Positions 4,791 through 64,000 of a stretch of DNA of 64,000 nt are shown one piece after another (position 1 is the first letter of the stretch; the number at the start of each line of letters is the position of its first letter). A model generated the notes under the pieces. It was not told the DNA's origin and searched no databases. It worked only from the letters and a program-made list of their open reading frames with translations. The stretch comes from Hysterangium stoloniferum (Eukaryota; Basidiomycota; Agaricomycetes; Hysterangiales; Hysterangiaceae): NCBI GenBank assembly GCA_015178975.1, contig WHVD01000039.1:62001-126000 (forward strand), in the 5' to 3' direction. Position numbers and translations under genes: made by a program.

Positions 4791-5468
4791 TATGCAGAAG
4801 CCCTGGGTTCAATCCCCAGTCTGGTCATTCATTTTCTACACCCATAACAGGTTATGGGCCCCATTGTGCTATAGGGCATGGTTCCTGTGTGTAGAGTGAA
4901 CAGTTATGTATATTTATGTATGGTACAGTTGGACAAAAGAGCCAGAGAGGACCTATACAGTGACTCACAAAACCTTTCCAATGTTTGGAGTTTGCATATT
5001 GGCAGACTACTACCAGGGGAGAGAAAATAGCAAAAAATATCAACAATTCACACTAGATAGCTAAACATGTATAGAATCATGGTCTAGAATATTATTACAT
5101 AATATGCATTTTTGGGCATGCTAAAAATAATTTAGTCAGGCCTTCTCATTGGAAAGGTTTGGTGGCTGATGATTTTGATACAATATATACTATATTAGCT
5201 GGCCAAATCACATGTCTTTGTTGATTCTATTCAATATGGTCACATGAATTGCTGATCTATAGTCAATTTTGATATTACTATCTCTTCACATTGCCAGCAA
5301 TCCATCATGCACTCCCTCTCTCCTGCTCAACAACAATACATTATCTCTCTACTTGAAGCTGGCCATTCCACCCCATCCATTGGCTCAATTACTGGTTTTA
5401 GCATTGGTACTATCTCCAGACTTCACTCTAAGTCCCTTCCTACCCTTCCCAAATCAACTGGAGGTCAT

Positions 5469-6291
5469 TGTTACGACTGGAAAATCCTGCCGGACTCTGG
5501 GCATTAACTTGTATGCACCCATGCCCTAGATGCACCAAATGTCAGTTTACAGGAATTCCCACCCGGACTCCGTATGTCAGACTTGTCTACATTCAACCTT
5601 CATTACGTCACGTATCAGTCACTGGAATACCCCCGGACTCCAATCCCTGTCTATGTCTGTCCTCATCCCACGCATCAGTCACCGGACCCCACTCAGAATC
5701 CCGTCATCACTCTAACTGAGCCCCATTCCCGTTTTAGTCAAATGACCTGTCACGATTAGGACTCCGCTCCCACTCCGTTTCCCATTATGGGTTATGCTTT
5801 GTCATGATTCAGACTCTGCTCCATTCCGTCCCGTTCCTAACACCAAATTTGGTGTTTACTATTCTCGTTTTATGTTTTGTTAGTTTCATTTCATCATTAC
5901 TGGATTTGGTATGTCATTCACTCCATGGTTAAACTGGCAGATGTTGTACATACAATCCAGTCAGAAAATCGGCTTAGATTCCCCCCAGTAATCTAATACA
6001 TTTTCCGCTCTAAACTCCTACTTGAATCACACCACTCACACTAGTCGGAGCCCACGGGCTCCAGCGCATCTATCTCTCTCACCTATCCCACCTCACAACC
6101 TCTCGACCCACAACCTCTGACCTATGACCCCTCAACCCACGAACCCCACCCAGACTCCCTGGGATTCCCGTCCGCCTGTCTGAAATTGGACAACACGATC
6201 TCGTGAGGGCGCAGCCTATAAGCTGAAGCCAAGTCCTACCGGATATTCCATGGGTTTCTCCAGAGACCCACCTTGTACGTGTATCCTAACA
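5469..6291 (+). repeat. 5' LTR of gypsy A
   Basis: It begins TGTTACGACTGG and ends GTATCCTAACA. It contains a perfect 18-bp palindrome AACACCAAATTTGGTGTT (5839-5856), a CGG-ACT-CCG site (5564-5572) among several related triplet pairs, and the shared LTR core CTATAAGCTGAAGCCAAG at about 6215. The related LTRs at 36915, 38022, 52656 and 63650 confirm the boundaries. Confidence 0.95.
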
Positions 6292-6327
6292 GTATTTTCT
6301 GACTAAGACTCACAGATTGTTTTCAAT

Positions 6328-7320
6328 ATGCCACCAAGGAGAAAAGTGCACACACAGGCATCATTACCTGGACTGTCGACTCCTCATTCCCCGTTAACTT
6401 TGTATACCAGTCAGACACTCTTGGACCAGCCGGAACCCATGGAAGAAGCCTGTATCGAAGAAGTCCCGGAAAACCAGGTTGAATCCGAGCACGAGGACAA
6501 ATCCATAGCACCCAAGAAGGGAAAAGGTGTCGAAAATCCTCCGCCTAACCAACGACCGCACTTGGGGGATCCTACTTCTGAATTTTTAGCAGGTAATATA
6601 GATAAATTTATGCTGCACCTGCTAGAAGAATGAAAGAAAAAGGAACAAGAACCTCCATGGTCAAAAGTCAATGCTCCAGAACCCTTCATGGGTTCCAACC
6701 CAAACAAACTCTCTACTTTCCTCATGCAACGTCACTTCAATTTCCACAATCGAGCCACCGCATTCTCCACAGACTCCCGAAAAGTCAATTACACACTTTC
6801 ATACTTGTCAGGATCCACGTTGAAATGGTTTGAACCGGCTTTTAGTGGACTTTCCGAGGAAGAGCTGCTTTGGCTCGAAGATTGGGATGCTTTTGTTTTG
6901 GAGCTTGAAACCAACTTTGGCCCATATGACCCAACAGGAGAAGCTAAGAACAGTCTCACAAATCTTCATATGAAGGACATGCAGCACATCACAGACTACA
7001 TCGTCCAATTCAATAATCTTGCAGCTCGTTGTCAGTGGGGCGATCCCGCTCTCCACCACCAATTCTACACTGGTCTACTGTCCCACCTTAAAGACGAAGT
7101 CTCCAAAGGAGAAGATGGCAAGCCAAAAACCCTGTCCCATATGCGCCTCAAGGCTCAAAATGCAGACACACATTATTGGGAATGTTGCATGGAAGTTGCC
7201 CACAAGACCTCCGCGGACAAAGTAAACAAGTCCATGGCCAATAAAAACAACAACAACAATTTGTCAACCAGCAACCAAAACTCCACACAATCCAACAAGA
7301 AGAATGATAAAAAGTCTTAA
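6328..7320 (+). pseudogene. gypsy A gag region (fossil)
   Basis: This is the structural-protein region of the chromovirus. It includes the Gag core pattern (LSTFLMQRHFNFHN, SGSTLKWFEPAF, WDAFVLELETNFGPYDP, ARCQWGDPALHHQFYTGL) that matches Ty3/gypsy Gag proteins, followed by an Asn/Lys-rich tail. A zinc-knuckle-like patch (about 7420-7470) follows downstream. Broken. Confidence 0.85.
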
Positions 7321-7489
7321 AACAACAACAACAACAAGGACAATAACAAGGGTCAACAGTCCGGCAAGCAAACCAGAAAACCCGACCTCTCAGGCAAACT
7401 TGGACCTGATGGCAAATTGACCCCACAGGAAAGACAATGTCATATGGACAATAACCTCTGTCTCTTGTGCCCAGTCATCAAGTTCCAGA

Positions 7490-10400
7490 ATGTCCACTGG
7501 CAAAAGCAAACTCTTCAAAGGGACAAACAGCCAAGGCCTCCATGGAAACCCAATCAAAGGACAAACCGGCTTCCGACTCGAAAAAAGAGTAAGCAACCCT
7601 GTGGACTCCATGCGGGTTGGGGGTTGCATTGCCTCTCCACGCATTCAAGAGTTTACCTGTCTCAACGCATCTGCTCTTTCACGTTCTAATTCATTTTTCG
7701 TTAAACTTATGTCTAATATGATCCCGAAATTCATTTTTTCAGCTCTTATAGATTCTGGCTCAACTCATTGTTTTTTAGATACAAAATTCACACAAAAGAA
7801 TATGTTGTCAACTTATCCGATTAATCCCATTGGCCTCGGCCTCTTTGATGGCACAAGTAATTCGGTTGTCACCCAAGCTTGTGATTTATCCATCTGTTTC
7901 CCTTGTGGAACTTCTCAGTTGGTCACTTTCTATGTGACCCAGTTAGACTCAAGTTGCTCGGTGGTCCTAGGACACAACTGGCTTACCCACTACAATCCAT
8001 TGATTGACTGGATAGCTAACAGTATAACATTCCGGACACCCGCAGCAGCCGAGGAAACTGCACCTGACCCAGCCTCCACGGCACCCATGGCCTTCCCGGC
8101 ACCTGCAGTCTCGAGGACTCCTGTGATCCCTACGGCACCCATGGCTTCCCTGGAACCCATGGCACCTCTGTCTATTTCTCTGATTAATGCTGCAGCTTTT
8201 ATTAGGGCTACAAAAATGGATGGGTCCCAGGCGTTCACTATCAACTTAAAAATTGATGAAGCAACTGGACATTTTTCAACTCCAGTATCCGCATCTGAGC
8301 AAGCCGCTGACCTAGAAGGTGTCCCGGAGAAATATCATGACTTCGCAGATGTTTTTACCAAGAAAAAAGCTGACTGGCTTCTGCCCCACAGAGAATACGA
8401 CTTAAAAATTGACCTTGAAGATGGCGCACAGCCACCCCTAGGACATATTTACCCGCTCTCGTCCACAGAACTTTCTGCAATCTGCAATTTCCTGGATGAA
8501 CATTTGTCCATAGGTTTCATCAGACCCTCAAAGTCTCCTTTTGGAGCACCTGTTCTCTTTGTCAGAAAAAAGGATGGATCCCTTAGACTATGTGTTGATT
8601 TTAGAGGCCTCAATGCTGTCACCAAAAAGGATAAGTATCCACTTCCACTCATATCTGATCTGCTTGATGCTCTGCAGAATGCCCGGATTTACACCAAAAT
8701 AGATCTCAAACACGCCTATCATTTGGTCCAGATTGCTGTGGGTGGCGAATGGAAAACCACTTTTAGAACCAATTATGGGGCCTTTGAGTGGTTGGTGATG
8801 CCCTTTGGACTCACCAATGCTCCTTCTGTTTTTCAGCATTTTATCAACAACATGTTCTCGGACATGCTCAATGTATGCGTTATTGTTTACTTGGATGACA
8901 TTCTTATCTACTCTGAGGACCCCGTGGAACACAACAAACAAGTCCGTGAAGTTCTCCGGAGACTCAGACAACATGGTTTATTCATGAACAGTAAAAAATG
9001 TACTTTTGACACAGACTCTGTGGAATACCTAGGTTTCATTATGGGACCCAACAGACTCCGCATGGACAAAACTAAAGTGCAAGTCATCAAATATTGGCCT
9101 GAACCCCAAAAAGTTAAAGATATACAATCCTTCCTCAGCTTTGCCAATTTTTACAGACGGTTTATCTGTGGATATTCCAACCTCACGGTTCCCCTCACCC
9201 ATCTTACATGTAAGGATACTCTGTGGAATTTAACGATAAGTGTCAAAAAGCTGTCAATCTTTTAAAAAATTCTTTTTCTTCAGCTCCTGTTCTGTCACAT
9301 TGGAAACTGGACTTCCCGCTCATTGTTGAAATGGATGCCTCAGACTATGCACTTGGAGCCATTCTGTCTATCCAGGACTCTGACGGAGAAGTCTATCCAT
9401 GGCTTTTCTGTCCCAGACTTTCACTGGAGCAGAGCTCAACTATGACATTCATAATAAGGAACTCCTGGCAATTTTTTCAGCTTTCAAAGTGTGGTGACAC
9501 TATTTGGAAGGCTCAGGAACTTCAATTGACATTGTAACAGATCACAAAAACCTGGAATACTTTTCTACTACAAAACTTTTGACCCGTTGGTAGGCCCGCT
9601 GGTCTGAATATCTATCTGCCTTCAATATGATCATCCATTTTCGACCTGGCCATCTTGGCGGCAAACCCGACGCTTTAACTAGACGATGGGACATCTATCC
9701 TAAAGAGGGGAGCAATGACTATACCACAGTAAACCCGCACAACCTGAAACCTATTTTCATGAATCAGCAACTTACCGCATCAGTCTGTGCAACTTTCCTC
9801 GTGCATCCCATTGTCCGTGGAATTATCATTATGGATATCAAGAAGTTACATCAAGATATTCTATTGGCAATTCCACTAGACCCGATAACTAAAGCTCACC
9901 TTGACAATCCCGTGGACCCCGATCAACCTTGGTGGTCTCTTGATCAGCATGGTTTCATTAGACTTGACAATAGGATCTATGTACTGGACTCCGCCAGCCT
10001 CCGCCTCAGGGTCCTTCAATACAAACATGATCATCCACTCTCAGGACATTTTGGGTACAACAAAACTCTATCACTAATAAGAAGAGAATATACTTGGCCC
10101 GGACTCCGTGGATTCATTAAGCATTATTGTACATCTTGCACTACTTGTCCCCACTCGAAATCTCAGTGACACAAGCCATACGGCCTTTTGAAACAACTCC
10201 CAGTACTGGAACACCCGTGGAATTCTATCTCAATGGATTTCATTGAACACCTACTGGACTCTGAAGGCTTTTCCGCCATTCTAGTCGTTGTTGACAGATT
10301 CTCAAAACAAGGTACATTCATCCCTACACATGATACAATTACATATGTGCAGTTAGCGGAACATTTCATTATCCACGTATTTTCCAAGCACGGAGTTCCG

Positions 10401-11290
10401 TCCCACATAACTTCCGATCGAGGATCAGAGTTCATGTCTCACTTCTGTAGATCCCTCAGGAAATCCTTGGACATGAAGTTACATTTCATGTCCAGACACC
10501 ACCCGGAAGGTGACGGACAAACTGAACACGTCAATCAGACATTGGAACAATATCTCCATGTATATTGCAACTACCAACAGGACAATTGGAAATCTTTGTT
10601 ACCACTTGCAGAGTTTGCTTACAACAATGCACCATCGGCCACTACTGGCATTTCCCTGTTCTTTGCAAATAAAGGATATAATCCAAATATTACAGTACAT
10701 CCAGAATGAAATCTTACCTCTGCTCACGCTCAAGAGTTCACCATGGACCTCCACGAGCTCCACAAGGAACTCCAGACTGCAATAAAGTCCGCCCAAGAGC
10801 AATACCAACTTTCAGCGGACAGACACCGGATCCCGCCACCCAACTTCAAAATTGGCGATCGTGTTTTTGTCAAAGCTCAATTCTTTAGGACTACCCATCC
10901 ATCAAAAAAGCTTGCTGAAAAATATTTAGGTCCATTTGAAATTATCACACAAATAGGTTCGGTCTCTTGGACCCTACAGCTTCCGGATAGCATGTGTGCG
11001 GTACACCCGGTATTTCATGTTTCTATGTTAGAACCTTGTACTGCTAACACTATCCCGGATTGCATGCAATCTCTGCCTCCTCCGGTCATCATTGACGGAG
11101 AATCCGAGTTTGAAATCTCAGAAATTTTAGATTCGAAAATTGACAAGCGTTGACGCACTTGTAAACTGCTTTACTTGGTCAAGTGGGTGGGTTACGAGGG
11201 CACCAATGAAGAAACCTCATGGATTTTGGCCACAGAATTCAGTAATGCCATGGATCTCATCACTGACTTTCATACAGCTTACCCACTCAA
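7490..11290 (+). pseudogene. gypsy A pol region (fossil)
   Basis: The parts in order are: aspartic protease with ALIDSGSTHCFLD (about 7740-7780); a Pro/Ala-rich linker; reverse transcriptase with IRPSKSPFGAPVLFV and VIVYLDDILIYSED; RNase H with VEMDASDYALGAIL; integrase HHCC finger ending CTSCTTCPH; integrase catalytic core with SMDFIEHL, TSDRGSEFMS and HPEGDGQTEHVNQ; the GPF-type VHPVFHVSMLEP stretch; and a chromodomain-like end that includes YLVKWVGYE. This is the Tf1/sushi-like chromovirus order. It is not intact. Confidence 0.9.
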
Positions 11291-11533
11291 ACCTGGGCCA
11301 CTATCATCTCTCTGACCACACTCTGTGGACCACATGTTATGTTTGGACTCATTTTCATTATTCCCTGTCGCCCTATGTCTCTCTTTGCTTTTACAGGTTC
11401 TGACATGTCCTTCAAGTCCTTAAGCGGATTCTCCATGGACTTTGACTTTGACTTTGACCTTCACTTTGATTCTTATGTTTTTTCACGCTTTACTTTTAAG
11501 TTCAAGATTATTATCAAGTTTTATTATATTTTT

Positions 11534-12550
11534 TCAGTCTACATTTATGGGGCTATCTTTTTTCCCCGCCTCCTTCATCTCCTCAGGGAGCTCTGCTACC
11601 TCCGCATCAGAACTCCCGGCCTCTGGCTTCTCATATACAAAGCCGGCGTACTCCACTAGGAACTTGTAATGGTCCGAGTGGAGTGCATGGAGATCCTTTG
11701 CCATTATCACGCTTACCTTGTTGCTCTTCTGGAGCAACTCATTCTGGGCTTCAATGCCCTCGGCGATCTGTCCCAAGGCCTCCTCCAAACCGGAATACCC
11801 ATCCGACCTGCTAATGACCTGCATCCCGGATCCCGTGGCCTGCTCATGCACAAGCGAGCACCTCGCTTTGAGGTGTATGCACTGGTAACAGCCCGGTCCC
11901 TGCCTGGACTTTCGATTGCATTCAGTGTTCTGGTCATTACAACCAGAACACCGCAGGTTGTTCCGTACAGGAAGATGGACTAGCACCACTTTCCTTGCTT
12001 TCTGTTGATATGGTTAGTTTCCCCAGTTATCCCACGGACCTGAGACATACCTTCTGGGGGCTCTCCGGCTCCCCCTTGGACTCCGATTCAACCTCTGTTG
12101 CCTTGCGCTGAAAATACCAAGTCAGTTCAAAAAAAACGACAAGTTAAAGGGACTTATGTTTCCCGTGACCACCATGGCCCTCTCAGCAGCCACCCTGGCT
12201 TTCTCTGCAGCTACCCGGGCCTTCTCTGCGGCCACCCACGCAGCCTCCTCCTCATCTCTTTGCCTCTGCCTCGCAGCCTCCTCCTCATCTCTTTGCCTCT
12301 GCCTCGCAGCCTCTTCCTCATCTCTTTGCCTCTGCCTCACAGCCTCTTCCTCTGCAGCCAATGCCACCTGGTACTCCCCGTCCAATGCCTCCTTGACCTC
12401 CCTCACCTCCTTCTCTGCCTCTTCCCATTGACAATGCTGTTCTTCTCACTGTGCCAAAATCTGCACCACACTGAGAGGCACACAATATGGAGAGCCCATG
12501 GATGGCCTGATGGTTGGCATTGGCCTGCATGGTTTTGGTTTTGGTCCCAT
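11534..12550 (-). pseudogene. Antisense accessory gene of gypsy A, coiled coil plus Zn2Cys6
   Basis: It lies between pol and the 3' LTR on the opposite strand, tail to tail with pol. From 12550 it encodes a short head (MGPKPKPCRPMPT), a charged repeat rich in EEEAARQRQRD (likely coiled coil, about 12240-12360), and at about 11840-11980 a cysteine cluster with spacing C-2-C-6-C-9-C-2-C-6-C, the fungal Zn2Cys6 pattern. The tail includes KFLVEYAGFVYE. Intron-like gaps separate the blocks at the same places as in the relative at 62917. A TATA-like stretch (TATATATAAA, about 12602-12611) lies upstream toward the 3' LTR. It is a fossil with at least one break. Its role is unknown; DNA binding is inferred from the cluster. 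Confidence 0.7.
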
Positions 12551-12759
12551 TATGGCAAGATGGGGGTAATAAAGAAGAAGAAATTTCTATTTCTTCAAAT
12601 TTATATATAGGCTCATCGTGTTTGAACCTTACCTTCCAGATCACATGACTCTTTGACACATACGTGTAACTGACATGACTTTTGACACATGCGTGTAGCT
12701 GACAAGAACCTTATCTAGGTCTAGAGCCTCTTTGGGACTTCGGCATAAAGGGAGTGTGC

Positions 12760-13587
12760 TGTTATGACCAGCAAATCCCACCGGACTCCAGGCATTAACT
12801 CATACGCACCCACACCCTAGACACACCAAATGTCAGTTTACAGGAATTCCCACCCAGACTCTGTACATCAGACTTGTCTATGTTTGACCTTCATTACATC
12901 ACGTATCAGTCACCAGAATACCCCCAGACTCCATTCCCTGTCTATGTCCATCCTCATCTCACACATCAGTCACCAGACCCCACTCAGAATCCCATCATCA
13001 CTCTAACTGAGCCCCATTCCCGTTTTAGTCAAATGACCTGTCACGATTAGGACTCTGCTCCCACTCTGTTTCCCGTTATGGGTTATGCTTTGTCACGATT
13101 CAGACTCCACTCTGTTCCGTCCCATTCCTAACACCAAATTTGGTGTTTACTATTCTCATTTTATGTTTTGTTAGTTTCATTTCATCATTATGGATTTGGT
13201 ATGTCATTCACTCCACGGTCTATTTAAACTGGCAGATGTTGTACATACAATCCAGTCACAAAAATTGGCTTAAATTCCCCCCAGTAATCTAATACATTTT
13301 CTGCTCTAAACTCCTACTTGAATCACACCGCTCACACTAGTCAGAGCCCACAGGCTCTGGTGCATCTATCTCTCTCACCTATCCCAACTCACGACCTCTT
13401 GACCCACAACCTCCGACCTCTGACCCCTCAACCCACGAACCCCACCTGGACTCCCCGGGATTCCCGTCCACCTGTCTGAAATTGGACAACATGATCTTGT
13501 GAGGGTGCAGCCTATAAGCTGAAGCCAAGTCCTACCGGATATTCCGTGGGTTTCTCTGGAGACCCGCCTTGTACATGTATCCTAACA
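12760..13587 (+). repeat. 3' LTR of gypsy A
   Basis: It begins TGTTATGACC and ends GTATCCTAACA, followed by the GTCAT duplication. It matches the 5' LTR over its whole length. Most differences sit at former CpG sites, often TG in one copy and CA in the other. The palindrome (13130-13147) and the core (13507-13532) are kept. Confidence 0.95.
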
Positions 13588-14725
13588 GTCATCCCAAGAA
13601 GCTCTCTGCTACCAACATCCATCATGCAGTCCATCTAATCACATCTGGAAAGGCTGAAACTGCAGTTGACATAGCCCAGAGAATTCAGACCATCACCAAC
13701 CACCCTATTTCAGCTGAGACAGTTCAGAGGAGCTTGAAGAAAGCAGGGATGAAAGCAGTTGTGAAGAAGAAGAAGCCACTTTTGTCCAAGAGATATATGA
13801 AGGAGAGGCTTGACTTTGCTTTGGCCCACCACTGGACTTTAGATGACTGGAGGAGGGTTGTGTGGTCTGATGAGACTAAAATAAATTGCCTTGGCTCAGA
13901 TGGGAGGAAGTGGGCATGGAAAAAGATTGGGGAAGGCCTGAATAAGAGGCTTGCTCAAGGAACAGTGAAGTTTGGTGGAGGGTCTGTCATGGTTTGGGGG
14001 TGTTTCATGTGGGAGGGTGTGGGATATGCCACCAGGATTGAGGGTAGAATGGATGGGGAGCTTTACAGGAGTATCTTGGATGAAGAGCTGCAACAAAGCA
14101 TCAGGTATTATCAGCTGTCCCCTGATAAAATCATTTTTCAGCAGGACAATGATCCAAAACATACCTGTAAAAAGGCAAAGGAATGGTTTGAAGAGCATGA
14201 ATGACTGTTCTAAAATGGCCTGCCCAGTCCCCCAATCTCAATCCAATTGAGCATCTATGGGATCACTTGAAGAGAAAGCTGGGACAGTATGCCACTGCAC
14301 CAAGTGGGATTCTGGAGTTGTGGGAGAGGATAGAGAAGGAGTGGGAAGATATACCAGCTTCTGAGTGTCAGAAGTTAATTGAAAGCATGCCAAGAAGGGT
14401 TGAGGAAGTAATAAAGGCCAAGGGAGGGTATACCAAGTATTAAAATATAGCCAAAATATAGTATACATTGCATCAAAATCATCAGCCACAAAACCTTTCC
14501 AATGAGCAGGCCTGACTAAATTATTTTTAGCATGCATATTATGTAATAATATTCTAGACCATAATTCTATACATGTTTAGCTATCTAGTGTGAGTTTTTG
14601 CTATTTTTTGCTATTTTTTCGCCCCTGGTAGCAGTCTGCCAATATGCAAACTCCAAACATTGGAAAGGTTTTGTGAGTCACTGTATCTGCATATAATATT
14701 ATTGAGTGCTAACATTAAGGGAGTG

Positions 14726-28782: not shown

Positions 28783-29582
28783 CTATTCATGCCCCATTAA
28801 CCAGGTCGACGCAGTGCCACCCCAGGGAACAACCTCAACGACCAACTCTTTCGAACGGATCCAGTGGAGCTTCTCTGCCTTCACCCGATGAATGCCAATT
28901 TTCCCAAACGCCACCGCTACCTCCCCGTTTCCCCCGCTCGTCTGTCCATTAACATCTGCCCCCGCCACTGGAATTCCCGTCGAACCATTCGTCACCGTCA
29001 ATACCACGGGTTGATTGGCAAGTGCAATGCTTGGTCCCTCAAGCCTCAACGCGCTTGTAAATATATCGCTTGAATACGCAACCGAAAGCGAAAAGAACAT
29101 CGTCGGATGCCTTCACCTCTTCTTGGCAGCCCCCTAGGTTAGTAGCGGTGAGATTGATAAAGATTTTCCAAAAATTATTCCCTGTCGCCAGTTCGCCATG
29201 AATAAAATTGATAAAGAAATCATCACAGGGCTCGAAAAATGCCCTAATACAGTCCTGTCAGCAGAACTACATACCTAGGAAAGACGGACTCACCCATCAA
29301 TACCAAAACCATATATTTTGGCAGCATCATCTAATGCACTGGTGCATGTCGCAACTGGCAACTCATGTGTGCTATTATTTGTTCCATCGCAGTGGTGATT
29401 CCCTCCAGACACGGTCGTAACATTGTGACCTCGGGTGAAAACAGGGCCGTCGAGCAGTGTCTTGTTTTCCCCCTCAATTCGTAGGTTCACCACCACCCAT
29501 GGATTTGGTGTTGGGGTTGCGTCTACATGTGCTAAATTGAACGCGGCGAGGAGCAAAAGGCTACGAGGAAGTGGAAATGCAT
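28783..29582 (-). pseudogene. DUF4430-type secreted protein, decayed duplicate
   Basis: It parallels the intact gene at 30500-31251: same secretory start (ATGCATTTCCACTTCC at 29582), same VVNLRIEGENKT block, same intron with donor after FGIDG (about 29294) and a CTGAC branch-like site, and the same C-terminal NQPVVLTVTNGSTGIPVAGADVNGQTS domain. Compared with its neighbour it lacks one C in the signal-peptide codons (near 29555), so the ATG frame stops early, and it has 10 extra bases before RLEGPSIALANQ (near 29060), which shift the frame again. No in-frame upstream ATG was seen. A tandem duplicate that has become a pseudogene is the simplest reading. Confidence 0.75.
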
Positions 29583-29609
29583 GCTGAACGACGGGGACTG
29601 TCAAGTCAG

Positions 29610-30499: not shown

Positions 30500-31251
30500 T
30501 TAAATGACAACGAGAACGGACAACTTGTTTGAACGAATCGAATCAGACTTCTCGGCTTTTACCCCATGAGTGCCGATTTGCCCGAATGTCACCGACACCT
30601 GCCCGTTAGCATCGCTCGTCTGTCCATTAACGTCTGCTCCGGACACCGGACTTCCCGACAAACCATCAGTCACCGTCAACACCACGGGCTGGTTAACATG
30701 TGCGATTTCTTGGCCTGCAAGCTTCAAGAAATGTACTTTCGAAAATGCATCGAAAGCAAAAAGGACATTATCGGCTATCTTCACCTCTTGTTGGCAACCG
30801 CCTACAGGGGTGAACTGGAAATTGAGAAGGATACCCCAGAACTGTGTCGCTGTCTGCGTCTCGCCACCAATGGAAGTGATGAAGAAGTCATCGAACTCGG
30901 CATCAAATGTCCTAATAATCCCCTGTCAGCAATACCACATACTTAGGACGGAGGTACACACCCATCGAAACTAAAACCATGGCTCCTGGCAGCATCATCT
31001 AACGCACTGGTGCATGTCGCACCTGGGAATGCATTTATGCCATTGTTTGTTCCGTCGCAGTGGTGGTTCCCTCCTGATGCAGTAGTAACATTGTGACCCC
31101 GGGTGAAAATAGGGCCTTCGAATATTGTCGTATTTTCCCCCTCAATTCGTAGGTTCACCACCAACTCTGGATTCGGTGTTGGTATTGCATCTGCATGCGC
31201 TACATTAAACGTGGTGAGGAGGCAAAAGGCTACGAGGAAATGGAAATGCAT
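30500..31251 (-). CDS. Secreted DUF4430 domain protein, 233 aa
   Basis: Exon 1 is 31251-30962 and exon 2 is 30911-30500; the 50-nt intron (GTGTGT...TTAG, with GCTGAC branch-like site) restores GGG. The protein starts MHFHFLVAFCLLTTFNVAHA, a clear signal peptide with likely cleavage after AHA or ADA. The DUF4430 part covers about residues 28-150: VVNLRIEGENTTIFEGPI, GGNHHCDGTNN, ATCTSALDDAA, FDDFFITSIGGE, FWGILLNF, VGGCQQEV and NVLFAFDAF. This fold resembles transcobalamin-like/SLBB ligand-binding domains. A C-terminal Ig-like domain (NQPVVLTVTDG, VSGADVNGQT, IGTHGVKAEK) ends at VLVVI. I chose the ATG in MHFHF because the longer frame starts at TTG. Role: secreted or wall-associated, ligand unknown. 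Confidence 0.85.
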
Positions 31252-31259
31252 CCTAAACA

Positions 31260-32136: not shown

Positions 32137-33029
32137 TTAGTGACATTTATGCGGCTCCCCATTGGCACACTTGTACTTTTCAGACAGCTCCCTACTGAGT
32201 TTTCCCTTTTCCCGTTTCTCTTCAGGAGTTTTGAGGTATTCCTTTCGAAATTCATTCATCCGACGACGGATATCAGACGACCTCCGTACCGTTGCGAAAA
32301 GGGTTTGTTGATGCGTTGGCATCCATCCCTCTGAGAACCGATTATCTTTGAGCCAGGTTTGTAGGAAGCGTGTGGCAATCTTTTCCTTGCTCTTCTTGCC
32401 AAAGATATCCAAGACAAGTGCCCATTCCCCTCTTGCTATCTCCTGATGCAAGGCATCTAACGGCGAGGCGTCCTCCAACTCCACTCTCCTCTGCACGACA
32501 TGCTCAATCGCGATGGAGTCAGGTTTCAAAAAGTCCTTGAGAAGAACTTGGTTGGTCTCGATGGGGGCAAATTTATGACCGGGGTTGGTGTTAAGATGGA
32601 CAACAGACGCGTCATGTTCGATGCAGTTGTGTCGGGCAAGCTCGTGGAGTGTTATTGGTTTTATCTTGAATCCGAGGTTACCAATGAGGAATAAGCCCCC
32701 ATATACGAGGACCCAGGATAATGGTGCGGAGATTCGGTAAGTATTTGGATGCTGAAGAGCGGTCAGCAAGTCCTGAGGTGTAATATCTCGACCGCTGCGG
32801 GGCCTGGAATCAAGTATTAACTTAGTATGACGAGAGATTGATATCACTTTGCTCACAGATACCCGTGGTTCGCCAGTGCATTTAATGCAGGACATGGTCC
32901 GCGTATATCCCCCTCAGTAGGAGGGTGGAACGCATGGGGGTTCATGCTTGAGTTCATGCCAAGCTTATGCCGGGGGCAACCTGACTCGGAGGTGACCTTG
33001 TCAGTCGAAGTTCTCGCCGAAGAAGACAT
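32137..33029 (-). CDS. Short heme-thiolate peroxygenase (family 2 peroxidase), 279 aa
   Basis: Exon 1 is 33029-32857 and exon 2 is 32803-32137; the 53-nt intron (GTGAGC...CCAG) joins to give NHGYLPRSGRDI. The family inserts oxygen from peroxide using a heme held by a cysteine. Visible hallmarks are the proximal ligand GPCPALNALANHGYLPR (about residues 45-60) and the distal acid motif EHDAS in HNCIEHDASVVHLN. EHD, rather than EGD, places it with the short (CPO/MroUPO-like) group. The C-terminus is Lys/Arg-rich. No signal peptide is seen from the first Met (MSSSARTSTDKV), unlike many secreted members, so it may be intracellular or a further 5' exon exists. A TATA box (CCTATATAAA, 33091-33100) lies about 62 bp upstream, supporting this start. 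Confidence 0.88.
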
Positions 33030-36753: not shown

Positions 36754-37725
36754 TGTGATAGCTGACACGTTACCCTGATCACCACTCACTGTAGACCTAG
36801 TTTATGTCTTACGAGTGGTGGTGCTTGAGTAAAAAGTGTGTCTATCCTTATTTGGTACTGAGTGTGCCCACAAGTATACACAGGGCTTCGAACTAATGAA
36901 ATGAAAGAAGTATTTGTTATGACCAGAAATCCTGCCAGACTCCGGGCACTACAGTAACTCATACGCACCCACGCCCTATACACACCCATTGTCAGTTCAC
37001 CAGAATTCCCACCGGACTCCATACGTCAGACTTGTCTACATTCGACTTCGTTACATTGTGTTTCAGTCACCGGAATACCCACCAGACTCCGTCCCTGTCT
37101 ATGTCCGACCTCGTCCTATGCGTCAGTCACCAGACCCCGCTCATAAAACCCATCATCCCTCTAACAGAGCCCCGTTCCCATTTTAGTCAAATGACCTGTC
37201 ACGATTCAGACTCCACTCTATTCCATCCCTTCCTAACACCAAATTTGGTATTTACTATTCCCATTTTATGTTTTGCTAGTTTCGTTTCATTATTACTGGA
37301 TTTGGTATGTCATTCATTCCATGGTCTATTTAGTCTGGCAGATGTTGTACATACAATCCAGTCAGAAAATCAGCTTAGATTCCTCCCAGTAATCTAATAC
37401 ATTTTCCGCTCTAAACTCCTACTTGAATCACACTGCTCATGCTAGTCGGAGCCCATGGGCTCCAGCGCATCTATCTCTCTTACCTATCTCAACTCACAAC
37501 CTCTCGACCCACGACCTCCGACCCCTCAACCCACAAACCCTGCCTGGACTCCCTGGGATTCCCGTCCGCCTGACTGAAATTGGACAACATGATCTTGCAA
37601 GGGTGCAGCCTATAAGCTGAAGCCAAGTCCTACCAGATATTCCACGGGTTTCTCTGGAAACCCGCCATGTACATACCCTAACAGTATTTTACTGTAGTGA
37701 AACTGATAAAAGCATACTCCTCACA
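36754..37725 (+). mobile_element. Family E LTR-like repeat interrupted by a gypsy A solo LTR
   Basis: Starts TGTGATAGCTGACACG and ends TCCTCACA, so TGTGA/TCACA are inverted termini. The part up to 36914 plus 37689-37725 (about 200 bp) matches window positions 1-221. The gypsy LTR 36915-37683 sits inside. Flanking bases (ACCTA, CCAAG) do not match, so it is not a clean solo LTR. Confidence 0.55.
36915..37683 (+). mobile_element. Solo LTR of gypsy A, copy 3
   Basis: 769 bp, TGTTATGACC...CCCTAACA, with identical duplications GTATT at 36910-36914 and 37684-37688. The repeat at positions 100-200 is the matching empty site, which confirms the insertion. It carries the AACACCAAATTTGGT palindrome (slightly decayed) and the LTR core at about 37605. 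Confidence 0.92.
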
Positions 37726-38021: not shown

Positions 38022-38846
38022 CGTTACGACCCACAATCCCACCAGACTCCGGGCACTAACCCGTATGCCCCCACGTGCTACAAGCACCAATTGTCTGTTT
38101 ATAGGATTTCCTGCCCGGACTCCGTATGTCAAGACTCGTTACGTTCGACCTCATTACGACACATGTCAGTCACCGGACTTCCCCTGGACTCCGTCTCTGT
38201 CTATGTCCGTCTTTATCCCACGCATCAGTCACTGGACCCCGCTTAGAATCCTGTCACCACTCTAATCGAGCCCCGTTCCCATTTTAGTCAAATGACCTGT
38301 CACGATTTAGGACTCCGCTCCCGCTCCGTTTCCCGTTATGGGTTATGCTTTGTCACGATTCGGACTCCACTCCGTTCCATTCCGTTCCTAACACCAAACT
38401 TGGTGTTTATTATTCCCGTTTTATGTTTTGTTAGTTTCGTTTCATCATTACTGGATTTGGTATGTCATTCACTCCACGGTCTATATAAACTGGCAGATGT
38501 TGTACATACAATCCAGTCAGAAAATTAGCTTAGATTCCCCCCAGTAATCTAATAACATTTTCCGCTCTAAAACCTTACTTGATTCACACTGCTTGCACTA
38601 GTCGGAGCCCATGGGCTCCGGCGCATCTATCTCTCTCAACTATCTCGACTCACGACCTACGACCTACGACTCACGACCTACGACCTACGACCCACGAACC
38701 CCGCCCGGACTCCCCGGGACTCCCATCCGCCTGTTCGAAATTGGACAACACGATCTAGCGAGGGCACAGCCTATAAGCTGAAGCCAAGTCCTACTGGATA
38801 TCCCACAGGTTTCTCTGGAGACCCACCCTGTGTGTGTATTCTAACA
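38022..38846 (+). mobile_element. Solo LTR of gypsy A, copy 5
   Basis: 825 bp, ending ATTCTAACA, with duplications TCAGC at 38017-38021 and 38847-38851. The first base is C where other copies have T. It keeps an intact CGG-ACT-CCG site (38116-38124) and the core at about 38767. Confidence 0.9.
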
Positions 38847-40373: not shown

Positions 40374-42084
40374 TATGTACTTTTCTCACAGTTGTCAAGG
40401 GGGCAACTTCTTTTGAAGATCTCAGGACCTATGAAGGACAGATCTATCCTTCATTCCAAGCAGCCTGCATGGTACATGGTCTACTTGAAGATGATAAAGA
40501 ATGGAAGTTGTGTCTTCAAGAGGCAAAGGCTATGCAGACTGGATTTCAATTACGGAGACTGTTTGCTACTATTCTCAGCCAATGCTTTCCTTCCAATCCA
40601 GCTGCACTCTGGCATAAACTTAGAGTAGACATTTGTGATGACTTGAAATACATTCTTCAGACACATCTTCATCAGCCAAACCCATCTGATGAGACAGTCC
40701 ATGACTTTGGTCTCTTTAAGCTTGATGAAATTCTTTGTACAAGTGGGAAACCATTTAGAGTACTACCCTCATATGCCTTATATAGTGCCACGGGAAGAGA
40801 GAGTGGGAAATCAATTCATTAAGGAACAAAGGGCTTATGACCAGGCAAACTGAGCAAATGAAAGCAGATATAAATATTGAAAAGTTAGATGAGGGACAGA
40901 GGGTTGTATACAATGAAATCATGGATGCTGTCATTGCAAGGTATGAAACTGGAGTAGATGGAAAGCTTTTCTTTTTGAATGGACTTGGGGGTACTGGAAA
41001 ATCATTTGTTTAGATACTTTGGCATATGCCTGCCGAGGCAAAAGACTAATTGCTTTGTGTTGCCTCCTCTGGCATTGCTTCATTTATTCTGAGTGGTGGG
41101 TGGACATCTCATAGAATGTTTCAAATTCCCCTTGAGGTTGATGAGAAATCCATCTGTATAATGAAGAAAGGTTCAGATAAGGCCAATCTGATGAAAGAGG
41201 TCAGCCTTATTATTTGGAATGAGGTTCCAATGCAGAATCACTTTGCCTGTGAGACAGTAGATCAGAGCCTTAGAGATATTCTTAACAAGGATATTTCTTT
41301 TGGAGGCATTGCAGTAGCATGGGGTGGTGACTTTCAACAACAGACATTGTCTGTCATTCTTAAAGGTTCAAAAGAAGATATAATTGGTGCATGTATCTCA
41401 CAGTCTCACCTTTGGAACAATGTCAAGATTCTATTTTTGACTGAGAATATGCATATAGATCCTACTGATCAAGAGAGTGCTATTTTTTCTCAGTGGCTTT
41501 TGGATATTGGACATGGAAAGGACATGCCTCTCAATAATATGTTTAAAGTCCCTGAACACATGCTATATGGACCAACAGTGGATAATGTAGTCTCAACTAT
41601 TTATCCAAACATATATGATCCTGAGGTCTTACAGATGAGCTTTTCTTGGAGTGGACCATTCTCTGTCCTTGAAATTCAGATGTAGATCAAATCAACAATA
41701 TGCTCTTTAAAGAATTTCTAGGGATTCAGCAGACCTACTACAGTGCAGACAGTGTCAAAGATGGAGTCAATGAGACATCATATCCTCCTGAGTACTTAAA
41801 CTCAATCAACTTTGGAAGATTGTTACCAAGTAAATTGCATTTGAAACCTGGAGTGCCATTAATGCTTCTTTGAAACTTGGATCCAAAACAAGGACTCTGT
41901 AATGGAACAAGACTGCAGTTAATACAAGTGACTCACAGAGTACATCAAGTAAAGATCATTGTAGGACCTTCAGCAGGAGAGCTGGCATTCATCCCTCAAA
42001 TAACAATTATGCCAACTACCAAAAAAGTGCCATTTGAACTCCATTGTCAGCAGTTTCCAGTCAGCGTAGCATTTTCTATGACTA

Positions 42085-51792: not shown

Positions 51793-52528
51793 TGTTATGA
51801 CCATGTCGCAGCCATTCGGCCCTGAGGTTATCGCCACCTATCGACGATTCAAGTTATTGCTCAAGTCACCACATCAGAAACCATCGCCCCCGATGCTGAC
51901 GTATGCTTTTGCAGTGATCAAACTCCGTTTACGCCCATGTCAAAATATACTCGTATTATCTGGTTAAACTTTTGATACGTCCCTTTTATTATGTTGATCC
52001 ATTCTATCCTATGTTTCACATATGTCTATCTATATTTGTAGTCCTCAAACTATTTCCTTTAACTGTAATTCCGCTCTCGGTTATCATCGGCCTCCGAACT
52101 AATCATAAACTTCCCGTTCCTAGTCGAGCTTATTGTCAGTACCCTGTTCCACTCTCCTCCTAGTTAGTATTTCCTAGACACTTGATACTTGTATATGAAC
52201 CCGCTGTAGTTGTAGTTACTAGGCAATCAGAATATTGACTCAGAATACCCTCATACGTCTGTAACAGTCTCATACTAAGGATCCCCTCATCTGCCTTCGC
52301 GTGCACTCACCCACTCCCGGCCCCGACCCCTTGGCCCGACACTCGACTTATCCTTCGGTCCCGATCGGTATCTTGCTGAAAGGAACTCTTTGGGATTAGT
52401 CTTCGCCCGTCCGAAATTTAAGGACACACTATGGATATTTGCGAGGGTGCAGCACATAAGCTGAAGCCAAGTCCTTCCGATCGGTCCCTGTCAGCCACCA
52501 ACATTAGTCAGTTCTCAGTTCTTAACAC
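51793..52528 (+). mobile_element. Family C solo LTR, copy 1
   Basis: 736 bp, TGTTATGACC...GTTCTTAACA, flanked by CCCGG and CCTGG, the same site after one CpG transition. It has CCGATCGG at 52361-52368 and 52477-52484, and the core CATAAGCTGAAGCCAAG at about 52455. Inserted in the family D LTR. Confidence 0.88.
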
Positions 52529-52655
52529 CTGGGAACTGTCCCATGGAGTCCCTGGGTAATAGGTCTGGGGATTAGTAGTACAAGGAGTGTGGTATCAGAA
52601 TAATTACCAGAAGAGGTACTGCTGAGATGGACTTGGCTTCAGCTTATGGGCTGCG

Positions 52656-53449
52656 TGTTATGACCGGAAATCCTGCCGGACTCCAGGCACTAATTTATAT
52701 GCACCTGCGCCCTATATGCACCCATTATCAGTTTACCGGAATTCCCACTGGACTCCACACATCAGACTTGTCTACATTTGACTTCGTTACATTGCACTGG
52801 ACTCCGTCCCTGTCTATATCCGACCTCATCCCGCGTGTCAGTCACCAGACCCCACTCAGAAAACCCGTCATCCCTCTAACAGAGCCTGTTCCCATTTTAG
52901 TCAAATGACCTGTCACGATTTGGACTCCACTCCCACTCCATTTCCCATTATGGTTTATGATTTGTCACTATTCAGACTCCGCTCGGTTCCGTCCCATTCC
53001 TAACACCAAATTTGGTGTTTACTATTCCCACTTTATGTTTTGCTTGTTTCGTTTCATCATTACTGGGTTTGGTATGTCATTCACTCCACGGTCTATTTAA
53101 ACTGGCAGATGTTGTACATACAATCCAGTCAGAAAATTGGCTTAGATTCCCCCCAGTAATCTAATACATTTTCCACTCTAAACTTCTACTTAAATCACAC
53201 TGCTCACACTAGTTGGAGCCCACGGGCTCTGGTGCATCTATCTCTCTCACCTATCTCAACTCACGACCCATGACCTCCGACCTACGACCCCTTGACCCAC
53301 GACCCCCGCCCAGACTCCCCGGGATTTCCATCTGCCTGTCTGAAATTGGACAACACGATCTAGCGAGGGTGCAGCCTATAAGCTGAAGCCAAGTCCTACT
53401 GGATATCCCGCAGGTTTCTCTGGAAACCCACCCTGTACGTATCCTAACA
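52656..53449 (+). mobile_element. Solo LTR of gypsy A, copy 4
   Basis: 794 bp, TGTTATGACC...GTATCCTAACA. Flanks CTGCG and CTGTA are a decayed 5-bp duplication; the interrupted family D sequence suggests the original was CTGCA. It landed inside the conserved LTR core of family D. Confidence 0.85.
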
Positions 53450-54489
53450 CTGTACCCTCGTACACTCATTTGGATGTCCATATTTTGAGCTGACAGAATG
53501 CATACAAGGAAGATGTAGATTCTGGAGTTCCCATGGGAGGTCCGGGAATCAAGCGTGCAGACAGGCAAGAGCACTAGAGACTGGATCAGGATGAGGGTGT
53601 AACTTGTTCGAGGGTCAAACTTGTTCGAGATTCAAACTGGATTCTAAGTACATGAATATAGGAGAATTATATAGACTGTGAAATGTAATAATACCAAATC
53701 TGGTATTAATGAGGGGCAGAACTATTCAACATAAAATAAAACAAGTGAATACCAAACTAGGTATTAGGGATGGAATGGAACGGGAATGGGGTCCGAAACA
53801 TGACAGGTCATTTAACCATAACTGGAGCGGGGCTCAGTTAGAGCGGTTCCGGGGATTCCGGTCAGAGTCCGGTGACTGGTCCATGAGATACAGAGTGTCG
53901 GGTGTATATAGGGTGGAGTTCAGAGTCCGGTGGAGTCCGATGACTGCTACATGGGACACATGACAGAGCCTTTGATCATAATGGGAGCAGGGTTCTATGC
54001 TCTGTTAGAGAGGTTCCGGAAGTCCAGTGACTTGGTGCACAGGATAGTGTTGGGTATGGACAGGTTTAATGTGCAGGAGGTCTGGCAGAGTCCGAGGACT
54101 GGTGTATGAGACACAGAGTGTCAGGTACAGACAGGTATGGGTACAGACATGTCAGGTACAGACAGGTGTGATGGGTGGGTCCCAGCAGGAACTCTGGTTG
54201 TGACTGTATGTTAGGTTCCATACAGCAGGTTGGGTGCATATAGGGCAGAGTCTGGGTCCCGGCAGGTTGTCCAGTAGTGGGTATAGAGAGTTGGGTGCAG
54301 ATAGGGTGGGGTGCATACAGAGAGTCAGGCATAAACAAGTTGATGTGCAGGCTCCGGCAGGAACTCCGGTTGTAACTATACAATATAGATGGTCGGGAGC
54401 ATGTAGGACGGGGTCCGGGAGGCCGGAGGCCGGCGGGTTTTCCAGTTCCTGACACATCACAAACTTCCTGCTTCCTTGATCAGCTTACC

Positions 54490-61992: not shown

Positions 61993-62916
61993 TGTTAAGA
62001 ACTGAAAACTGACTAATGTCAGTAGGCTGACAGGGACCAATCGGAAGGACTTGGCTTCAGCTTATATATGTGCTGTGCCCTTGCAATTATCCATTGGGTG
62101 TCCTTAAATTTCGGATGGGCAAAGACTAGTCCTAATGAGTACCTCTCGGCGAGTTACTGATTGGAACCGAAGGATAAGTCAAGTGTCGGGCCAAGGGGTC
62201 GGGAACTGAGAGTGGGCGAGCGCATGTGAAGGTGGATAGCGGGATACTTAGTATGAGACTTCTAGAGGTGTGAGACGATATTCTGAGATGATATTCTGAT
62301 TACCTAGTAACTACAACTACAGTGGGTTCATATACAAATATTCAGCATCTAGAAAATATTAACTAGGATAAGAGTGGAAAGTGGTATTGACAAATAAGCT
62401 TGACTAGGAATGGGAAGGTTATGATTAGTTCGGAGGCTGTGAAATAACCGAGAGTGGGATTATGAGAAAAGGAAATAGTCCAAGGGCTACAAGTATATAT
62501 AGACATATGTGAAACATAGAGTAGAATGGATCATCATAATAAAAGGGATGTATCAGAGTTTAACCAGATAGTACATACAAGTATATTTTGATGTGGGAAT
62601 AAATGGAGTTTGATCACCGCAAAAGCATACATCAGCATCGGGAGACCAACAGTTTCTGATGTGATGACTTGAACAATGACTTGAATCATCGATAGGTGGC
62701 GATAATCTCGGGGACCATCGAGTTGTGACACGGTCATAACAGTATCCCCCCATTTGGCTGAAATCCCAAGGAGGCCAAAAATCTAGATTCCATACGTAAA
62801 AACTTGTCAGGTGCGGTTGGTGTGTCAAAACATCATGTGACTCGGTAAAAATTTACATATAAAAATTCAAGGGGTACTGGCACTTGATTTTTTTCACTTC
62901 TGTTCCCTTGACCACC

Positions 62917-63661
62917 ATGACCATAGGTTTGGGGTCGAAGCCATACCCAGTTCAGTTGATGGTCACTCCCATGTCAGTTCTGTGTGGGCCATCTAGTGTG
63001 CAAGAACATCAACAGCTGCTCGAGGAGAAAAGGAAGGTGTGCCAGGAGGAGGAGTGGAAGGAGAAGGAGGAGCTGGTGGCCATAGAGGCCGAGGAAAAGA
63101 AACTGGCAGTGGAAGAGGCTGCGTGCAAGCACTGGGATGCAGTGCTTGCAAAGAAGAAGCAGCAGGAGGCCCATCGGGCACGAGAGGAGGTGGCGAAGAA
63201 GAAGCGAGAGGGAAAGGTAAGTGGGTTCCCATTTCTTTTGTGAACTTTGCTGATTTTTTGTTTTCAGTGCAAGGCCATGACACCTTCAGAGTCCAATGAC
63301 AAAGAGGAAGAGGAGGACGAGGAGGATGTACTGGGGCCGTCAAGCCCCAAGGTGGGTTCGGGTTCCTAATTTTTACATTTTTTCTAAGTTTTTTTGATTA
63401 TAGAAACAAAAACTGGCCCCCAAAGTGGGGCCCAAAAATGACCCAAAGTGCAACCGGTGCACTAAACGGGGTCAGACTTGCCATCCACAGGCAAGTGGTT
63501 GGGGCCGCATCTGTCAAGAGTGTGCCAACCAAAAACTTGGGTGTGTATTCCTGGATGCCGATGGCAATGGGTCCTGCCAAGAACAGCAGGCCAATGCATT
63601 AGAGGAACAAAACCACCTCATGCGCACCTACTTCTCAGAGACGACTGGTTGGAGGTTGTGA
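62917..63661 (+). pseudogene. Antisense accessory gene of family C, coiled coil plus Zn2Cys6
   Basis: Starts with ATG at 62917, running away from the 3' LTR and opposite to the element's own direction. The first block (to about 63216) has a head like that of the 12550 relative (LGSKPYPVQLMVTPMS against MGPKPKPCRPMPT) and a Glu/Lys-rich coiled coil. Intron-like gaps with GT...AG ends lie at about 63217-63267 and 63352-63403. The last block has C-2-C-6-C-10-C-2-C-6-C spacing (CNRCTKRGQTC, CQECANQKLGC), the Zn2Cys6 pattern. The C-terminus runs into the family A LTR and is cut. TATA-like ACATATAAAAA lies at about 62855. Function is inferred from the domain only. Confidence 0.65.
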
Positions 63662-64000
63662 GTCGTGAGGTTGTGAGTCAAGATAGGTAAGAGAGATAGA
63701 TGCGCCGGAGCCTGTGGGCTCTGACTAGTGTGAGCGGTGTGATTCAGGTAGGAGTTTAGAGCGGAAAATGGATTAGATTACTGGGGGGAATCTAAACCAA
63801 TTTTCTGACTGGATTGTATGTACAACATCTGCCAGTTTAAATAGACCGTGGAGTGAATGTCATACCAAATCCAGTAATGATGAAACGAAATGAGCAAAAC
63901 ATAAAACAGGAATAGTATACACCAAATTGGTGTTAGGAATGGGATGGAATGGAGCGGAGTCCAAATAGTGACAAATCATAAACCATAACGGGAAATGGAG
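63650..64000 (-). mobile_element. Gypsy A LTR, partial, runs off the window
   Basis: Matches gypsy A LTR in reverse, from the GGTTGTGAGTC repeats through the AGAGATAGATGCGCCGGAGCC phrase (split as AGATAGATGCGCC) to the palindrome region (about 63920 ACACCAAATTGGTGT). The last roughly 180 bp of the LTR's 3' end are missing at this junction. Confidence 0.8.

Follow-up and report, generated by a model that had tools for sequence, protein, structure and literature searches.

We suggest that a Ty3/gypsy lineage of LTR retrotransposons carries an accessory gene, located antisense to gag-pol beside the 3′ LTR, which would encode a nuclear regulator feeding back on the element. The reading draws on the analogy of known antisense genes, and we put its probability at about 0.5. 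The evidence for the gene comes from two copies, both damaged, found in the window, that is, the whole 64-kb stretch of fungal DNA that was analysed, which is rich in mobile elements. The position and strand of the gene, the boundaries of the first element (A), the spacing of six cysteines in the product, the matching intron-like gaps and the shared leader are read directly from the DNA. All coordinates are those of the window.

Element A has the following parts.

5469-13587: element A, Ty3/gypsy, with paired LTRs and target-site duplication
5469-6291, plus strand: 5′ LTR of A, with target-site duplication GTCAT at 5464-5468
6634-7320, plus strand: gag ORF (Pfam Retrotrans_gag, E 9.1e-11)
7421-9265, plus strand: protease/reverse transcriptase ORF (Pfam RVP_2, E 1e-6; RVT_1, E 2.8e-36)
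9594-10709, plus strand: integrase region in two stop-separated pieces (Integrase_H2C2, E 2.3e-19; rve, E 9.4e-11)
10710-11315, plus strand: pol tail (SH3_Tf2-1, E 8.6e-22), with a chromodomain-like stretch past a stop
12760-13587, plus strand: 3′ LTR of A, with target-site duplication GTCAT at 13588-13592

The LTRs of A have TGTTA...TAACA ends, of the TG..CA type, and are 90.5% identical to each other. Since the short GTCAT duplication flanks the LTR pair on both sides, A is a real insertion. The Pfam domains follow the order gag, protease, reverse transcriptase (RT), integrase and SH3_Tf2-1, as is characteristic of Ty3/gypsy. Chromo matches weakly at the end of pol (E 0.0014, 18.9 bits; the cut-off is 25.1), and judged by its sequence A probably belongs to the chromoviruses within Ty3/gypsy. 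The gag-pol is broken into pieces, hence this copy is dead. Between the two LTRs, 827 aligned positions show 71 transitions, 33 of them at CpG, and 4 transversions, and the CpG observed/expected ratio is 0.52 in A and 0.56 in the whole window, against 0.97 and 0.91 in two gene-like stretches. With LTR divergence so rich in transitions and CpG so depleted, transition-type decay would be a sufficient cause for the lesions of A.

Inverted repeats of about 240 bp, 91% alike, enclose A at 4955-5196 and 14455-14686, and a transposase match (Pfam) is found at 13518-14201. By these sequences A apparently was inserted into, and split, a probable Tc1/mariner-type transposon (4955-14686). marY1 of Tricholoma was considered as a counterpart of A and rejected, as its LTR is given as 426 bp in a passage of PMC10627285, versus 823 and 828 bp in A. 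The Rfam scan of 11300-13600 gave no match, the sigma-70 scan was uninformative, and the tRNA scan gave one tRNA of undetermined type at 2692-2764, which is uninformative for the antisense gene. Elsewhere in the window, a PIF1-like helicase fragment at 41050-41682 (E 1.1e-46) is probably a Helitron relic. A direct duplication (28837-29589 and 30515-31258, 76% identity) lies around a DUF4430 match, with a Peroxidase_2 match past it at 32137-32910.

The antisense gene of A is arranged as follows.

11534-12550, minus strand: antisense gene of A, between pol (which ends at about 11315) and the 3′ LTR
12551-12759, minus strand: leader, with a TATA-like match at 12609-12603 and the shared block at 12659-12641
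12550-12158, minus strand: exon 1
12157-12108, minus strand: intron 1, 50 bases, placed by comparison with the second copy (C); begins with AT
12107-12051, minus strand: exon 2
12050-12002, minus strand: intron 2, 49 bases
12001-11534, minus strand: exon 3
11858-11950, minus strand: six-cysteine cluster in exon 3, spaced C-2-C-6-C-9-C-2-C-6-C
11520-11525, minus strand: AATAAA just past the stop codon

The original prediction had an antisense gene between gag-pol and the 3′ LTR of A, and the mapped exons, together with the LTR pair and its GTCAT duplications, bear this out. As the LTR pair that encloses the gene has matching target-site duplications, the gene travelled with the element. Exon 1 codes for a Lys-Pro head, followed by a Glu/Arg/Lys-rich stretch that consists partly of 33-base tandem repeats. 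The introns have branch-like sites (CTGAC/CTAAC), and the LTR end of the leader, as we read the sequence, includes the polypurine-like stretch of the element.

The second copy is located near the end of the window, beside an LTR of another family (C).

61993-62741, minus strand: LTR of family C, adjoining the second gene copy
62742-62916, plus strand: leader of the C gene, with the shared block at 62822-62840 and a TATA-like match at 62858-62864
62917-63661, plus strand: second gene copy (C), natural 3′ end lost
62917-63216, plus strand: exon 1, 300 bases
63217-63267, plus strand: intron 1, 51 bases
63268-63351, plus strand: exon 2, 84 bases
63352-63403, plus strand: intron 2, 52 bases
63404-63661, plus strand: exon 3, 258 bases, ending at the ORF stop
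63449-63544, plus strand: six-cysteine cluster, spaced C-2-C-6-C-10-C-2-C-6-C
63647-64000, minus strand: truncated A-type LTR, interrupting the C gene and continuing past the window edge

The antisense placement of the C gene is seen beside its single adjoining LTR. The A-type LTR at 63647 lacks its last ~170 bases, and its similarity begins before the C ORF stop at 63661. Past 63647 it replaces the internal region, and the C gag-pol is absent from the window. The predicted extents of the gene hold for the exons in both copies but not for intact genes: A has an in-frame TGA (12448-12446) in exon 1 and an intron 1 that starts with AT, and C has lost its 3′ end. The claim of two gypsy families also stands in part. 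A is gypsy, and its LTRs have no blastn match to those of C (at least 80 bp, E 1e-5). However, we infer the gypsy type of C, since its gag-pol is outside the window, and the LTRs of A and C share end and U5 words, for example ATAAGCTGAAGCCAAGTCCT, so the two families are related.

Five solo LTRs of the A and C families are present in the window, at 36914, 38023, 51793, 52652 and 56719. An exact target-site duplication flanks the LTRs at 36914, 38023 and 56719, the one at 51793 is one base off, and 52652 has no clear-cut duplication. At 51793-53450 two of the solo LTRs share one orientation, the C-family copy first and the A-family copy ~120 bases past it. Both places in the window where internal sequence survives beside an A- or C-family LTR carry the gene (2/2), a count that leaves out the truncated LTR at 63647, which runs off the window.

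The two copies hold the same type of gene, as originally predicted. A search of the six frames of the 64 kb for C-X2-C-X6-C-X5-14-C-X2-C-X6-9-C gives exactly two places, which are the A and C genes, and the same pattern is found in 0 of 60 random first-order Markov windows. The proteins of exons 2-3 align with a score of 72 (maximum of 500 shuffles, 53) and those of exon 1 with 71 (maximum of 500 shuffles, 65), with exon 3 identity of ~25%. Both introns are in phase 0 in A and in C, at matching places, in line with the intron-like gaps that had been noted there.

The predicted promoter-like landmarks are found as well. The distance from the start of the TATA-like match to the ATG is 59 bp in both leaders. 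The leaders also have a common block, GTGTCAAA-N3-TCATGTGA, a pattern that occurs nowhere else in the window. Within this block, which was picked after looking, 16 of 19 bases are equal, and none of 60 shuffles reaches that. We cite only this fixed 19-base block, because the Smith-Waterman score of the leaders, 25, merely equals the maximum of 300 shuffles. GTGTCAAA is present twice in A (12681-12688 and 12652-12659), 29 bases apart.

Chance reading frames within decayed repeat DNA are a highly improbable source of these features. They would fit the weak ORF statistics, with antisense open runs of at least 159 codons arising in 21 of 1000 simulations, so that ORF length is weak alone, and they would fit the codon usage. 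Trained on the gag-pol of A, codon usage prefers another frame to that of the gene in three of the four exons and ties for best in exon 3 of C; as the gene frame is not singled out, we rejected it as support. Chance does not account for the location of both cysteine clusters of the window at the same position in an element, the 0 of 60 random windows and the matching gaps. In all four exons tested, GC reaches its minimum at codon position 2. When all six frames of exon 3 are compared, the gene frame comes first by a thin margin, 61 vs 53 for an opposite-strand pair. The same comparison over the whole region was rejected as support, since an opposite-strand low-complexity pair (93) outscores the gene frames (78 and 72).

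Could the antisense transcript itself be active, as double-stranded RNA or a silencing trigger, with the reading frame of little matter? The possibility is raised for plant antisense ORFs in a passage of PMC7264820, and the unconvincing codon usage would agree with it. However, the cysteine spacing, the phase-0 gaps and the protein similarity outlast the DNA similarity, which is absent from exons 2-3 (score 18; shuffle mean 20.1). Conservation of the protein without similarity of the DNA favours a selected protein, and we regard an active transcript as improbable.

The protein-level similarity could also stem from a host gene, which was transduced or trapped in an ancestral element and stays there as passenger DNA, while free-standing host relatives do the real work. 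An antisense, intron-bearing captured gene would persist likewise, and both copies are decayed. Hypothetical proteins that combine charged stretches with six-cysteine clusters are numerous in mushroom proteomes, which we count in favour of capture. We nevertheless hold passenger DNA to be rather unlikely, as the gene sits next to LTRs of two families in an identical slot and orientation, the gaps match, the leader block is common to both copies, and exon 3 has diverged to ~25% identity. The slot shared by two families and this divergence suggest long residence in the elements and not a recent capture. This alternative is not fully exclusive of an accessory gene, since an old capture may later gain a use; the odds given for the alternatives likewise overlap in part. 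The same slot and strand, the promoter-like leader, the intron positions and the long divergence are marks of a resident accessory gene.

The nature of the product depends on the cysteine cluster. Zn2Cys6 domains (PF00172) have the spacing C-X2-C-X6-C-X5-12-C-X2-C-X6-8-C with basic residues between Cys 2 and Cys 3, and they bind two zinc ions and CGG-type sites. The A and C clusters satisfy this cysteine spacing, and to that extent the Zn2Cys6 DNA-binding domain of the original prediction stands; the profile comparisons do not back it. With an E limit of 10, Pfam gives no PF00172 match in A exons 2-3 or in the complete C protein. For the trimmed clusters PF00172 is the best family, with E 0.23 and 12.0 bits for A and E 0.042 and 14.4 bits for C, both below its cut-off of 21 bits; the GAL4 control gives E 4.8e-13 and 49.4 bits. 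When the cysteines are fixed and the other residues shuffled, 5 of 10 sequences match PF00172 (E 0.013-1.6; 9.3-16.0 bits), and one of them (E 0.013) beats both real clusters. The Pfam Zn_clus match is thus explained by the cysteine spacing, and we rejected it as support. The residues between Cys 2 and Cys 3 are NDQNTE in A, with no basic residue, and TKRGQT in C, with two.

In searches of solved structures, the two-sequence profile of exon 3 gives five matches at E up to 10. Three are fungal regulator chains, Pho7, C27B12.11c (which we take to be another Pho7 chain) and PPR1, at E 0.87-1.2, and two are unrelated gp41 constructs at 0.36 and 1.6, the former ranking ahead of the regulators. As a single sequence, C exon 3 finds three unrelated chains in the PDB, and A exon 3 has no match there. 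A exon 3, C exon 3 and C exon 1 have no match in NCBIfam. The AlphaFold models are unusable, with mean pLDDT of 50.8 and 33.1. As the spacing fits, and PF00172, the shuffles and the models give no support, we call it a six-cysteine cluster that is Zn2Cys6-like in its spacing.

The stretch preceding the cluster was predicted to be a coiled coil, for which the analysis gives no support. Exon 1 codes for a charged stretch, with Glu/Lys/Arg making up 34-37%, and a crude heptad score of four stretches is matched by 133, 500, 297 and 83 of 500 shuffles. An alternative product, charged and zinc-binding, with the genomic RNA or Gag assembly as its target and no role as a DNA-binding regulator, would suit a zinc-cluster likeness limited to spacing, an A cluster without a basic residue between Cys 2 and Cys 3, and a charged repeat (33-nt units in A) that is not of the leucine heptad type by this score. 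The listing of Pho7, C27B12.11c and PPR1 by the exon 3 profile speaks against such a role, albeit with weak E values and behind a gp41 construct, and we likewise consider it rather unlikely.

Hence, we return to the accessory gene with a regulatory product and propose the following mechanism, in which we infer transcription, splicing, zinc binding, nuclear action and feedback. Transcription would start at a promoter belonging to the gene, immediately internal to the 3′ LTR, and proceed in the direction of pol, and the antisense transcript would be spliced in its own sense. The introns would persist through retrotransposition because the gene is opposite to the genomic RNA, in which its splice signals are not used; this explanation, offered originally for the survival of the introns, is sound from established retroelement biology. 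The product would be a protein of ~300 residues with a Lys/Pro-rich start, the charged Glu/Arg/Lys stretch and the six-cysteine cluster, which is probably zinc-binding. As a nuclear regulator, the protein would feed back on the transcription or the copy number of the element in an HBZ-like manner.

A candidate target is present in the LTRs. The five near-complete A-family LTRs (5469-6291, 12760-13587, 38022-38844, 36914-37683 and 52652-53450) contain the motif (C/T)(A/G)GACTC 5 or 6 times each (four with 5, one with 6), and a partial sixth contains it once. The expectation per near-complete LTR is ~0.3 (0.24-0.29), and none of 300 simulations exceeds 3. None of the three C-family LTRs contains the motif, and an LTR binding-site array as a common feature was rejected for this reason. 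Elsewhere in the window the longer form of the motif occurs 17 times, with several copies in the pol of A. We suggest that (C/T)(A/G)GACTC may be one candidate LTR site of the A-family regulator. The strongest form of the proposal, a spliced, promoter-driven, GAL4-like antisense regulator that binds its own LTR and sets the transposition rate as a counterpart of HBZ, is in our view unlikely.

Relatives of the gene were looked for in other sequences. IMG/VR gave no confirmed relative with the spliced C protein, the protease-RT ORF of A, an RT segment and A exon 3 as queries, nor with a degenerate RT DNA pattern. An RT segment found 32 gypsy loci in genome contigs of bacterial and archaeal species, which are probably eukaryotic contamination of these assemblies; 10 of the 32 come from one Trichormus assembly. 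When the 32 loci are searched by tblastn with A exon 1, A exons 2-3 and C as queries, the sole match has 21 residues (E 1.0), and the six-cysteine pattern gives just two cysteine-rich low-complexity matches (L029 and L030). The loci have no clear LTR pair, with the long terminal repeats of two of them (L020 and L023) overlapping the RT match, and therefore they say little on the presence of the gene. Among the matches listed from the open-licence literature, none is an antisense, intron-bearing retroelement gene with a six-cysteine cluster.

Should intact copies express the gene, the element would be an LTR retrotransposon maintaining an intron-bearing regulatory gene of its own. It would offer a tractable system in fungi for studying how elements control themselves through antisense genes. 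Some fungal six-cysteine ‘transcription factor’ annotations could then be genes of mobile elements.

Finally, we compare the gene with known systems. In classical Zn2Cys6 proteins the cluster comes first. GAL4 and PPR1 (Zn2Cys6, PF00172) share the six-cysteine spacing with the A and C clusters. Unlike them, A and C are below the PF00172 cut-off and have a charged region preceding the cluster, and A has no basic residue between Cys 2 and Cys 3.

The brtn gene of Boty-like Ty3/gypsy elements of Botrytis cinerea reportedly goes back to Zhao et al. 2011. The arrangement was originally thought to be without precedent, which is not the case: passages of PMC7264820 review antisense genes that occupy the interval from pol to the 3′ LTR in plant elements, name one for the fungal Boty (brtn), and term their function unknown. 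brtn is also mentioned in parts of PMC8365987, PMC4227169 and PMC5987419, the first of which states that it is absent from the latest B05.10 annotation. As described in PMC7264820, brtn resembles the A gene in its antisense slot between pol and the 3′ LTR of a fungal element. It differs from the A/C gene in its ascomycete host, whereas short introns and gene types suggest an Agaricomycete as the host of A and C. The passages on brtn mention neither introns nor a cysteine cluster.

Among plant Ty3/gypsy elements, Grande gene23, RIRE2 and Retand TRP28 share the position and strand of the A gene, according to passages of PMC7264820 and PMC11963269. The same passages describe a promoter upstream of gene23, a nuclear Grande protein and predicted DNA binding of TRP28. 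However, the proteins of the plant antisense ORFs differ from the A/C protein, and the words ‘intron’, ‘zinc’ and ‘transcription factor’ do not occur in PMC7264820 or PMC11963269. HBZ of HTLV-1 is encoded by a spliced antisense transcript on the 3′ LTR side, and this regulator inhibits Tax-mediated activation (passages of PMC3185765). HBZ is a bZIP factor, with its transcription and main ATG starting in the 3′ LTR (same source), whereas the A/C gene has its ATG and TATA-like box in the internal region. By analogy with HBZ, with the nuclear Grande protein and with the predicted DNA binding of TRP28, the A/C protein is probably a nuclear regulator. In position and strand, the antisense accessory-gene arrangement is of an already known kind, and the six-cysteine, intron-bearing version would be a variant of it.
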